Shown here: positions 8,502-42,729 of the stretch, piece by piece
Numbering within the stretch: position 1 is the stretch's first letter
How the letters are laid out: the number at the start of each line of letters is the position of its first letter
From: a virus
DNA: 43,560 nucleotides
Virus record (IMG/VR): IMGVR_UViG_3300017527_000399
Span: 1-43,560 of that record
Strand: one strand, 5' to 3'
The notes under the pieces: model-generated
The model's database searches: none
Told to the model about the DNA's origin: nothing
Seen by the model: the letters and a program-made list of their open reading frames with translations, nothing else
Position numbers and translations under genes: made by a program

Positions 8502-8987
8502 ATGAGAAAATTACTTATTTCTTTATTTGCCCTCCTATTCGTTGCAGGAGTGGCATACGCAGGTACAATCTGTGACCCTTCAGCAGGCCCTTGTAGAGAA
8601 GTAACATCCTATTATAACAGTAGCTCGTCAACTACGTTGACTGCGGGTATGGTTGTTATCTGGGATACGGACGACTCTACAGGAGATAACGATAATTACG
8701 TCGATGTTACAACGACATCTGGTACCGGCCCTGTCGCTGGTATAGTTCTTGTCGGTGCAGCAGTAGGAGCAGACGGGATTATGGTTACAGACGGAGTTAC
8801 GACTGTTACAGTTCCTTCTTCCGGTGTCGGTTCTGACATCGTAGCTGGAACGTTCCTTTGTACTTCAGGAACAGCAGGAACAGCGCGTTCTTGTCCTTCT
8901 TCGGGGGTTGACAAGGGATTACAGTTTGGTTATGCAACAGCAACCGCATCAGGCGGTTCTGTTCTAGCAAACATAGACTGCGAGTAA
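8502..8987 (+). CDS. Decoration-like protein with a Sec signal peptide
   Basis: This 161-residue protein has a clear signal peptide (MRKLLISLFALLFVAG, cleavage after VAYA near residue 20). The mature part is Gly/Ser/Thr/Val-rich beta protein with LTAGMVVIWDTDD and TGPVAGIVLVGAAVG, reminiscent of head-decoration proteins encoded right after coat proteins. Two Cys pairs (ICDPSAGPC and LCTSGTAGTARSC) could form disulfides outside the cytoplasm. The ribosome site AAGGAGGAACA is strong. The decoration role is inferred from position and composition. Confidence 0.72.
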   Translation: MRKLLISLFALLFVAGVAYAGTICDPSAGPCREVTSYYNSSSSTTLTAGMVVIWDTDDSTGDNDNYVDVTTTSGTGPVAGIVLVGAAVGADGIMVTDGVTTVTVPSSGVGSDIVAGTFLCTSGTAGTARSCPSSGVDKGLQFGYATATASGGSVLANIDCE

Positions 8988-11176: not shown

Positions 11177-13019
11177 ATGTTTAGTATTCTTATTGTTTAC
11201 AACTTTATGTTACGCACAAAACCCTAAGTTAATCGGATATCCACCCCAGACTATTATGGGATTCCGCGGGTTAGATACACGTACCAGCGCACCGTTATTA
11301 CAGGACGGACGAGCTTCGGATTTAAAAAACGTTAAATTATCCCGCAGTTTTGATTTAGAGAAACGCAGAGGGTACGACCCGGTAGATGACACACTAGACG
11401 ATTTAGATATAGATTCTCCTGCGATTAACGGGATATTCTATATGGAATATTCTAACGGCAATGAACGGATTTACGCGTTTGTCGGGAAGAAATTAAAGTA
11501 CGATTCAGGGACAGCATGGACGGAAGTTACTGATTCACCTGAAGGGCATAAAGTAACGGGTATCACCACAGGCAAGAACAACCAGTGGCAATGTATCAGC
11601 GCGTTAGATTACGCTGTCTGCACGAACGATACTGATTTACCGTTAAAAATAGATTCTACCCCTGAATACTCTGATTTAGATTTATCTGATTTAAGTGATG
11701 CCGTAACTAAAGTAAAAACGGTTATATGGTATAAAAACTATTTAGTTTTAGGGAATACCGTTGAGGCGGGGACAGAGTACCCTACGCGTGCACGATGGTC
11801 GAATGTCGGTACGATACAGTCTTGGACGGATGAGGATTATATCGATATAGGCGCACTTGCGGGAGATGAAATTGTAGGGTTTGCCGAGTTATACGGCGAC
11901 CTTTACGCTTTCTTAAGAAACTCGATTTACAAAGCGTCTTTTGTAGGAGGGGATGATGTCTTTACCGTTAATAAAGTCATTGAGAACATCGGTTCGATTG
12001 CTAGGGATTCGATACAAACAATCCTCTTGGAAGATAACCGCCGTGCCATTATTTTTCTTGACGAAGATAAGAGGGTATATTTATTCAACGGCGCTACGAT
12101 TACAGATATCGGATGGATTATCCAACCGACACTCGACAATCTCAACTCGTCACGAATCCAATATTCCGTAAGCACGTTTGACGGGGATTCTTACTATCTC
12201 TCGTCCAGTACAAGCGGTGTAACGGAGAACGACAGTATTTACGAGTTTCAGACAGAGGTCGGCGAATGGACTAAACATACTGATATCAACGCCAATGCGT
12301 TTGGTCAAATCAAAGATTCCAGTGTTGTAAAAACCTATTTCGGGAACTACGACGCGCATGTGTATTGGTTAGATAACCCCGATTATACATCAGACGGCGG
12401 TGATGGGACAGGATATGTCGGTGTAGTTGAATCTGTAGGCACGGTCAATACCCGCACGATAACAGGAGCACAGTTCATTAAAGACTCTACCCCTGGGTTC
12501 AGCACAACCCAACTGACAGGATGTTTATTCAAGATAACCTCAGGGACAGGGGCGGGAGAAGAACAGGTTATTGTGTATAACACCTCAACGGGTGTTGCCG
12601 TAGCCACAGCGTTCACCACTACCCCGACGACAACGAGTAATTACTCGATAGGTGCGATAGATGCCGCGTATACCACTAAATGGTACGATTTCGGGGATTC
12701 CCCAAGACTTAAAAACTTCCGTAAATTATTCCTTTGGGGTGAAGAATCTACAGGGGATGAAGTCATTGTAAGTTATTCTGTAGATTTCGGGTCAACGCTA
12801 GGAAGTGAAGCCAAGAACCTTAGTCCATCAACATCGAGTTTATGGGATTCAGCGTTATGGGATATCGGTGTCTGGGGGACAACAGGAGACAAGTTTTATA
12901 CGACTTTACTTAGCGGGTACGGGCGGATGATAGAGTATAAGTTTGAGAACGCGGATATCAACGAAAACTTTCATTTATACGGGTTTCATATGTTAGCGGA
13001 CGTGATGGATGTGGAATAA
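11166..13019 (+). CDS. Tail nozzle/stabilisation protein with signal peptide
   Basis: The 617-residue body resembles P22 gp10/T7 nozzle-type beta-propeller proteins that close the short tail. After GFRGLDTRTSAPLLQDGRAS it contains RARWSNVGTIQSWTDEDYID and LYGDLYAFLRNSIYK, hallmarks of such proteins. Preceding this is a Sec-type leader MLRKCLVFLLFTTLCYAQ (1-18). A signal peptide on a tail nozzle is abnormal because nozzles normally assemble on cytoplasmic heads. A C-terminal part (about 430-490, GTGAGEEQVIVYN) resembles a small beta domain. The start overlaps the adaptor stop by 11 nt. Confidence 0.82.
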   Translation: MLRKCLVFLLFTTLCYAQNPKLIGYPPQTIMGFRGLDTRTSAPLLQDGRASDLKNVKLSRSFDLEKRRGYDPVDDTLDDLDIDSPAINGIFYMEYSNGNERIYAFVGKKLKYDSGTAWTEVTDSPEGHKVTGITTGKNNQWQCISALDYAVCTNDTDLPLKIDSTPEYSDLDLSDLSDAVTKVKTVIWYKNYLVLGNTVEAGTEYPTRARWSNVGTIQSWTDEDYIDIGALAGDEIVGFAELYGDLYAFLRNSIYKASFVGGDDVFTVNKVIENIGSIARDSIQTILLEDNRRAIIFLDEDKRVYLFNGATITDIGWIIQPTLDNLNSSRIQYSVSTFDGDSYYLSSSTSGVTENDSIYEFQTEVGEWTKHTDINANAFGQIKDSSVVKTYFGNYDAHVYWLDNPDYTSDGGDGTGYVGVVESVGTVNTRTITGAQFIKDSTPGFSTTQLTGCLFKITSGTGAGEEQVIVYNTSTGVAVATAFTTTPTTTSNYSIGAIDAAYTTKWYDFGDSPRLKNFRKLFLWGEESTGDEVIVSYSVDFGSTLGSEAKNLSPSTSSLWDSALWDIGVWGTTGDKFYTTLLSGYGRMIEYKFENADINENFHLYGFHMLADVMDVE

Positions 13020-27488: not shown

Positions 27489-27688
27489 TGTCTATTGGAA
27501 AGATAATTAACATAGTAAACTGGGTCATTGAGAAATATGAGATTGTACGGCTTAAATGGAAACAGGCAGTCCGCAGGCATCGTTCTAAGAGGGTTCGTAA
27601 GGCTGTGGATAAGCGTGATCTGCGTACTCTTGGTGACTTCGTGCGCCATGTTCTCAAGAAAAGAAAAAGTAGATGGGATTCCAGTTGA
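27488..27688 (+). CDS. Hypothetical basic protein overlapping a lipoprotein gene
   Basis: This 66-residue, strongly basic product (RRHRSKRVRKAVDKRDLR) starts at a TAATG overlap. The lipoprotein candidate at 27528 lies in another frame of the same DNA. Only the start signal supports it; it could be dual coding or one of the two frames could be spurious. Confidence 0.45.
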   Translation: MSIGKIINIVNWVIEKYEIVRLKWKQAVRRHRSKRVRKAVDKRDLRTLGDFVRHVLKKRKSRWDSS

Positions 27689-27785
27689 CCCTGTAATTGT
27701 GCAGGTTAACGGAGTGGATTACTTCTGCCTAGAGGAACGTGCGTTCACTGCGGTCTTGCAAGAGGCGAGTAGAGACTGTGATTAA
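27528..27785 (+). CDS. Lipoprotein candidate (Rz1/o-spanin-like)
   Basis: The frame contains VRLWISVICVLLVTSCAMFS (about residues 24-43): a basic residue, a hydrophobic core and a lipobox VTSC. The mature part would be about 45 residues with FCLEERAFTAVLQEASRDC. An outer-membrane lipoprotein at the end of a late cluster and overlapping another gene fits an o-spanin. It lacks the Pro-rich body typical of Rz1. The true start is unclear. Confidence 0.55.
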   Translation: MRNMRLYGLNGNRQSAGIVLRGFVRLWISVICVLLVTSCAMFSRKEKVDGIPVDPVIVQVNGVDYFCLEERAFTAVLQEASRDCD

Positions 27786-27793
27786 AAAAAAGC

Positions 27794-27822
27794 TTGACAC
27801 GAAAAACGATTTATGCAATAAT
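27794..27822 (+). promoter_or_regulatory. Sigma70-type promoter P1
   Basis: TTGACA at 27794-27799, a 17-nt spacer and AATAAT at 27817-27822. This is a near-consensus promoter at the end of the late cluster. Its predicted start, near 27829, is a few bases before the pseudoknot-forming RNA. Confidence 0.72.
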
Positions 27823-27828
27823 GAATCA

Positions 27829-27942
27829 TAATGAAAAACCCGGATAGAAACAAAAGAATAATTTACCGAAGCAAGTTAAGAGGCAGCGTCGAGAGATGTT
27901 GTCTTTTTCATCTATCCGGGATCTTGCTTCGGTATTTTTTTT
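27829..27942 (+). ncRNA. Structured small RNA with crossing stems (pseudoknot)
   Basis: Two perfect inverted repeats cross. Stem A is CCCGGATAGA (27839-27848) with TCTATCCGGG (27911-27920). Stem B is TACCGAAGCAAG (27864-27875) with CTTGCTTCGGTA (27923-27934). Stem B is followed by eight T (27935-27942). Within the loop, AAGAGGCAGC (27878-27887) can pair with GTTGTCTTTTT using some G-U pairs. The unit is flanked by promoter P1 upstream and P2 downstream. It looks like a small RNA gene or a switch that ends at its own terminator. No known family is recognised. Confidence 0.72.
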
Positions 27943-27945
27943 ATC

Positions 27946-27973
27946 TTGACAAATCCTTTTAAAGAGTTAAAAT
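27946..27973 (+). promoter_or_regulatory. Sigma70-type promoter P2
   Basis: TTGACA at 27946-27951, a 16-nt spacer and TAAAAT at 27968-27973. It begins four bases after the T run that ends the upstream RNA. It points towards the early genes from 28050 onwards, and would start near 27980. Confidence 0.68.
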
Positions 27974-28007
27974 CGAGTTATGCAACCAACAAAACATAGG
28001 AGATACG

Positions 28008-28039
28008 GGGGGATAGGTTAAACTGTCCCCCTTTTTTTT
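28008..28039 (+). terminator. Terminator/attenuator in the early leader
   Basis: GGGGGA (28008-28013) pairs with TCCCCC (28026-28031) and is followed by eight T (28032-28039), a standard intrinsic terminator only about 30 nt after the P2 start. The five G that follow (28040-28044) can instead pair with the same C run. That gives two exclusive hairpins, so the leader could control read-through into the early genes. It could also simply terminate P1/late transcription. Confidence 0.68.
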
Positions 28040-28049
28040 GGGGGTAGCG

Positions 28050-28232
28050 ATGGGTGCAAAAGAAGATTATTTAAGAAAGTTCCAGCACGTTGAAGAAGAC
28101 GAATATTACGCACGGATTGAAGAGCTTTACAGTGTTGTTCAGTACGCAGTTAAATACGGGCATATTTCAGAAGAAGAGGGTAGGTATTACTTAGATTACC
28201 CGGAAGAAGGGTTTCGGTGGCTCTACCAATAG
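28050..28232 (+). CDS. Hypothetical early protein
   Basis: ATG 28050 follows GGGGGTAGCG, giving 60 acidic residues with many Tyr (EDEYYARIEELYSVVQYAVK). It is the first gene after the leader hairpin. Unknown function. The frame runs back to a TTG at 28038 inside the T run, which I rejected as a start. Confidence 0.55.
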   Translation: MGAKEDYLRKFQHVEEDEYYARIEELYSVVQYAVKYGHISEEEGRYYLDYPEEGFRWLYQ

Positions 28233-42285: not shown

Positions 42286-42314
42286 TTGACACAACCCTAT
42301 TTATATGATATACT
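42286..42314 (+). promoter_or_regulatory. Sigma70-type promoter P3
   Basis: TTGACA (42286-42291), a 17-nt spacer and TATACT (42309-42314). Near-consensus, directed at the HNH gene at 42343 and likely also at TerS, perhaps continuing across the join into the packaging genes if the genome is circular. Confidence 0.75.
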
Positions 42315-42342
42315 TAAAGTATAATTAAGAAAAAAAATCTTT

Positions 42343-42729
42343 ATGAATAACTGGGCTTCGTTTAATAGTTATAGCAATAAGGGCGACAAGGATTATAGAA
42401 GGTATCAAAGCGATACTGGGTCTTTAGATGCTATGCCTTATTGGGCTAGAAGTAGGCTTGCGGGGTCTAAAAATACTACAAGTAGAAACAAGAAATTAAA
42501 GTATGAAATAAAGATGCTCTTTGGTGGTTGTTGTTCTATTTGTGGATATGATAAGAACTTGGCCGCCCTAGACTTCCATCACAAAAGCAAAAAGAATTTT
42601 AGTATATCAGTAGCTGTAAATGGGGTTATTGATGATATATTCTGGAAAGAATTAGCCAAGTGTAAGTTAATATGTTCAAATTGTCATAGAGACTTACATT
42701 ACCCAAGTTGGAGGCAAGATGGGAAGTAA
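42343..42729 (+). CDS. HNH-type nuclease or zinc-finger protein
   Basis: The 128-residue product has CSICGYDKNLAALDFHH (C64, C67, H79, H80) and CKLICSNCHRDLHYP (C111, C114, H115, H119), the layout of HNH nucleases with structural zinc. HNH genes next to terminase genes often take part in packaging-site cutting. Its position just before TerS fits that. It could also be a free-standing homing nuclease. Confidence 0.78.
   Translation: MNNWASFNSYSNKGDKDYRRYQSDTGSLDAMPYWARSRLAGSKNTTSRNKKLKYEIKMLFGGCCSICGYDKNLAALDFHHKSKKNFSISVAVNGVIDDIFWKELAKCKLICSNCHRDLHYPSWRQDGK

Follow-up and report, generated by a model that had tools for sequence, protein, structure and literature searches.

Homing endonuclease genes of the T4 type (I-TevI, segB, mobE, and seg43 of Aeromonas phage 25) carry RNA hairpins over or beside their ribosome-binding sites (PMC2988022). 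These leaders are simple hairpins within longer transcripts, and many of the genes are promoterless (PMC2988022). By analogy, they are the nearest functional precedent for the phage RNAs described here: in both, an RNA structure immediately precedes the site where ribosomes bind on a phage endonuclease gene, and in the L052 copy the distal strand of stem B holds the GAGGG site. Unlike the T4-type leaders, the present RNAs combine two crossing stems with a terminator tail and a strong promoter of their own; they also precede genes other than endonucleases. The order of promoter, pseudoknotted RNA, terminator and nuclease gene resembles that of type III toxin-antitoxin RNAs (ToxI family), but the downstream genes vary, and the nucleases are HNH and DUF559 proteins, not ToxN-like. 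Tandem repeats of the type III antitoxin kind are absent from positions 27650-28100 of the window (the whole stretch of DNA analysed, a virus record of 43,560 bases), no ToxN-like toxin is adjacent, the neighbours being HNH_3, DUF559, DUF4406 or of no family, and PADLOC gave no toxin match. SAM-II and other pseudoknot riboswitches share the A-B-A'-B' order, in which a terminator or ribosome-binding site is the target of the final strand, but the RNAs described here have no conserved core, no Rfam match at the gathering threshold, and far longer stems. Bacterial leader attenuators, of the ribosomal-protein or leader-peptide type, also have a terminator in the leader directly before a gene; the present RNAs differ in that the crossing stems include the 5' end, and no effector is known. 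Group I intron and OMEGA/HEARO RNAs gave no Rfam match, and the nucleases are small HNH_3 and DUF559 proteins rather than IscB/IsrB-type.

In the window, the RNA lies downstream of the terminase, portal, capsid and tail genes, the last of which ends at 27785, and is followed by nuclease and replication genes, which places it at the boundary between late and early genes, as an earlier note on this DNA had proposed. The coordinates of its parts, and of the further copies described below, are collected in Table 1.

Table 1. Parts of the window RNA, neighbouring features, and copies in other phage contigs.
Feature	Coordinates	Strand	Remarks
Promoter P1	27794..27822	+	-35 TTGACA at 27794-27799, 17-nt spacer, TG, -10 AATAAT at 27817-27822
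RNA 5' end (predicted)	27831..27838	+	ATG at 27831 opens a 43-codon frame across the RNA
Stem A, 5' arm	27839..27848	+	CCCGGATAGA
Connector L1	27849..27863	+	A-rich, 15 nt, AACAAAAGAATAATT
Stem B, 5' arm	27864..27875	+	TACCGAAGCAAG
Internal hairpin	27878..27907	+	13 bp, GAGA loop; -16.0 kcal/mol for the segment
Stem A, 3' arm	27911..27920	+	TCTATCCGGG
Stem B, 3' arm	27923..27934	+	CTTGCTTCGGTA; adjoins the T-run
Eight T, terminator-type tail	27935..27942	+	putative 3' end; RNA of ~110 nt
Promoter P2, for early genes	27946..27973	+	TTGACA-16-TAAAAT, 11/12
Plain hairpin and T-run in P2 leader	28007..28032	+	directly 5' of the next gene
First early ORF	28050..28232	+	60 aa, no family match
Copy L052	13324-13208	-	contig G021; DUF559 gene after T-run
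Copy L050	10174-10278		capsid relative
Copy L041	386-476		capsid relative; HNH gene after T-run
Copy L145	4036-4144		otherwise different phage; DUF4406 gene after T-run
Copy L172b (second copy, L172)	behind promoter ending at 8697		same phage as L145; ORF without confident family after T-run

The anatomy described in the earlier note was confirmed in each part. P1 is a near-consensus promoter, matching at 11 of 12 positions with an extended -10 in a promoter scan. Stems A (10 bp) and B (12 bp) are exact reverse complements that cross in the order A-B-A'-B' with no base in common, the eight T follow B' directly, and the internal hairpin fits within the loop. A and B are the sole crossing pair of perfect stems of at least 9 bp within the window; at this threshold, which is looser than the A/B pair itself, 7 such pairs turned up in 40 Markov windows, or 0.18 per window. 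The first bases of the predicted RNA, ATGAAAAA (27831..27838), are complementary also to 27904-27911. By geometry, L1 could span the 22 bp of A plus B, and A-rich connectors are also present in the L050 and L145 copies. The nested minimum free energy of the window RNA is -35.8 kcal/mol (z = -4.9), a fold that includes B and the internal hairpin but not A, and in some copies nested folds lacking A are about equally stable.

Several other elements were noted around the window promoters. P2 and the plain hairpin terminator in its leader, which the earlier note does not mention, come immediately after the eight T. The sequence AAAANCGANTTATGCAA occurs once in P1 (27802-27818) and once in P2 (27969-27985), exact to the pattern, and is absent elsewhere at up to two mismatches; it is operator-like. 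In the P2 leader (28007-28043), CCCCC is able to pair with GGGGG on either side of the T8 run, which may allow a terminator form as well as an anti-terminator or site-blocking one. Control in trans or in cis through pairing between A' and the P2 terminator (5' arm) was considered and dropped, because about one such match is expected by chance on our estimate. An extended -10 promoter at 42286-42343 stands right before an HNH gene adjoining the small terminase gene and has no structured leader. A stretch of Bacillus phage G before a helicase gene (JN638751, 436520-436563) matches the P1 region at 84%, and no similar RNA was found behind that P1-like promoter.

Searches by sequence found no relatives. 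Rfam 15, at the gathering threshold, gave no match for the window RNA or for L145, L144, L052, L050 and L103, and a permissive Rfam scan of 27700-28100 gave chance-level matches only. BLAST of the RNA against annotated phages and plasmids returned short chance matches, an exact 20-base search among viral contigs returned none, and two sequence patterns had no match in 398 genomes of one bacterial phylum. One contig represents the same virus but ends before the RNA. A search of open-licence papers found no description of such an architecture. Phage leader RNAs are poorly surveyed because the sequence of such stems is not conserved and because neither nested folding nor covariance models can see stems that cross.

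Further copies were found by architecture, with a scanner for crossing stems that end in a T-run and an independent promoter score. Five were recovered from four other environmental phage contigs, two of them in one phage. The copy in G021 was reached from a homologue of the gene immediately 5' of the window RNA and lies ~850 bases further on; its stem A is CCCGACTAGA/TCTAGTCGGG and its stem B ATCCCTCGCAA/TTGTGAGGGAT, followed by a T-run. A P1-like promoter precedes four of the five, and the promoter of the G021 copy (L052) is weaker and lies ~60 nt upstream. Both crossing stems are present in all six copies, their joint formation being predicted from the sequence, and the A-B connector measures 15-53 nt, which by simple geometry would be long enough to span the stacked stems in every copy. 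The scan of 80 TerL-related contigs yielded no additional convincing copy, and the annotated phages L194-L201 contained none. L103 lies upstream of a GIY-YIG ORF and had a good score; it was not counted, because its 4-nt connector is too short for a 22-bp stem B and its nested fold reaches -47 kcal/mol. Three other candidates were rejected: L168 (stems in an A+T-rich gap, wrong strand), L036 at 12093 (antisense, within an ORF) and L077 (too weak). Two observations on these contigs stand apart: in L103 (1583-2380, minus strand) the GIY-YIG ORF has a promoter of its own and its start is immediately preceded by a long terminator-like stem, and in L050 (5845-8166) the large terminase has an apparent in-frame, intein-like insertion in the middle of its match.

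The earlier note had called chance formation of two such stems very unlikely; expected numbers were obtained from shuffles and from a Markov model. Among 131 distinct strong promoters in the fetched DNA, 5 are followed by crossing stems of ≤-39 kcal/mol where shuffles predict 0.013, and the next-best promoter reaches -32.8. L052 was left out of this count, and four of the five promoter-linked copies are independent, since the window copy prompted the search. A second-order Markov model of the relatives predicts 0.17 arrangements with a summed stem energy of ≤-39 in 324 kb, counting both strands; in 60 Markov repeats, a promoter score of ≥9.5 never coincided even with stems of ≤-32. Changes between copies point the same way. 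Stem A differs between the window and L052 (CCCGGATAGA versus CCCGACTAGA) at two neighbouring pairs, both compensatory, while stem B is wholly different and yet paired in each. Covariation was counted for one close pair (L041 and L050) and helix A only: of 17 pairs, 11 are the same, 2 show one-sided changes, 4 are double (compensatory) changes and none is broken. Pairing falls to 35-56% when the partner is shifted by 1 to 3 columns; the shuffle control, which is weak with two sequences, gave 31 of 500. Helix B could not be aligned across copies, and the five-copy MAFFT alignment was unusable because the stems differ. Relatives breaking both stems without compensation had been named as evidence against the RNA; the opposite was seen, with both stems kept and their sequence changed.

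The genes behind the T-run differ from copy to copy (Table 1), and the L050 contig ends soon after the RNA. A ribosome-binding site and/or start codon lies within ~20 nt of the T-run in L041, L145, L172b and L052, and no second promoter stands between T-run and start codon in four of the five other copies. A stem plus U-tract, the anatomy of an intrinsic-terminator attenuator, sits between promoter and gene, and regulated read-through is predicted. In L052 alone, B' carries the GAGGG ribosome-binding site, paired by sequence before the endonuclease gene; in L041 the site is past the T-run, and the window structure pairs no ribosome-binding site. Contigs G010 and G012 are 93-99% identical locally, but G010 has the empty site where G012 carries a clean insertion of ~650 bases; the block begins with the -35 box and ends shortly after the stop codon of the HNH gene, which indicates that promoter, RNA and HNH gene moved together. 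Seven further HNH hits in these contigs, some with strong promoters, have no such RNA upstream, so the RNA is neither general among these enzymes nor bound to a single type of enzyme. The copies have no common downstream gene and little primary sequence in common, and therefore no ligand or protein partner can be named.

We consider it very probable that this is a real, selected RNA architecture. Its recurrence in at least four other phage genomes, with changed stem sequences, usually just before a gene and once within a mobile endonuclease cassette, suggests a phage switch or small RNA that has not been described before. On sequence grounds, an even chance may be given to the window RNA belonging to an undescribed family of ~90-140-nt pseudoknot-forming phage leader RNAs that act as terminator-type attenuators of early or mobile genes. 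We infer transcription, pseudoknot formation, termination and attenuation as follows. The extended -10 promoter would start the RNA at or near helix A, and the parts would be made in the order A, B, hairpin, A', B', T-run. A could close before B' exists, and B would then close as the terminator stem, helix B and the T-run forming an intrinsic terminator, with L1 and the segment from B to A' letting both helices stack. Most transcripts would end at the T-run as short RNAs whose two ends are held in helices. Expression of the next gene would require read-through or disturbed folding of B; if B is delayed or opened, polymerase would enter the gene. The window copy is a special case. Since a second promoter follows, P1 would yield mainly a free RNA of ~110 nt, insulating late from early transcription, and a leader role is not supported there because P2 separates the RNA from the next gene. 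For this copy, a free RNA is nearly as likely as an attenuator. The earlier note had proposed a new structured RNA able to form a pseudoknot, which could be a small RNA or could act as a switch on terminator stem B, and both halves find support.

Four other readings were weighed against the attenuator family. The RNAs might be free, trans-acting small RNAs of ~110 nt, with ends locked in helices and with host or phage targets, the gene behind being incidental. In the window, P1 and the T-run do bound a complete unit that ends before P2, and fast change of stem sequence with the architecture kept is consistent with such a role; a late mRNA segment (12716-12736) is complementary to RNA 27851-27871 at 19 of 21 positions, which at E 0.6 is chance level. 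The gene is hard to regard as incidental, however, when four of the five other copies have a start codon within ~20 nt of the T-run and no other promoter, and when one copy was inserted as a unit with its gene; we consider this reading somewhat unlikely for the RNAs as a whole. Less probable still is an ordinary intrinsic terminator amid chance complementarity, to which we give hardly any weight: stem B plus T8 is a fair terminator by itself, and a terminator scan finds a simple hairpin at 27916-27932, but crossing stems recur behind strong promoters far above shuffles, and the changes in stem A are compensatory.

An attenuator with a leaderless leader peptide, in which a ribosome starting at the 5' ATG crosses A and B and decides on terminator stem B, is suggested by the window, L050, L145 and L172b, where the predicted transcription start coincides with an ATG or has one within a few nt. 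Frames of 38-53 codons span five of the six RNAs (window 27831-27962, L050 from 10173, L145 from 4035, L052 and L041), and the single-copy shuffle probabilities of 0.07-0.13 have a product of 1.2e-5, with frames and starts chosen after seeing the data. That post hoc choice counts against the reading, as do peptides that are unrelated and not conserved, a frame of only 10 codons in L172b, and a frame in L041 whose TTG start probably lies slightly upstream of where transcription begins; we judge it unlikely. An element of the P4 CI or HK022 put kind, conferring immunity or antitermination at the RNA level, would act through a processed leader RNA on nascent leaders or on RNA polymerase. Its position at the start of early transcription, self-complementary leader segments before terminators and rapid sequence change would all suit such an element. 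An immunity determinant would not be expected to occur as two different copies in a single phage, or to sit on endonuclease cassettes. The put elements have conserved sequence, which the copies do not, and the whole reading seems quite improbable.

Beyond the attenuator family itself, a bolder and rather doubtful proposal is that the RNAs form a novel class of mobile regulators, namely a pseudoknotted leader RNA, locked at its 5' and 3' ends, that would travel between phages with its promoter and cargo gene and may sense translation or another host state through a terminator stem forming across helix A. A simple recipe for finding more members is an extended -10 promoter followed by stems that start at the 5' end and cross, then a T-run and a gene start. 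A family that recurs in unrelated phages, and has once moved with a homing endonuclease, would be a testable example of cassettes that control their own expression.
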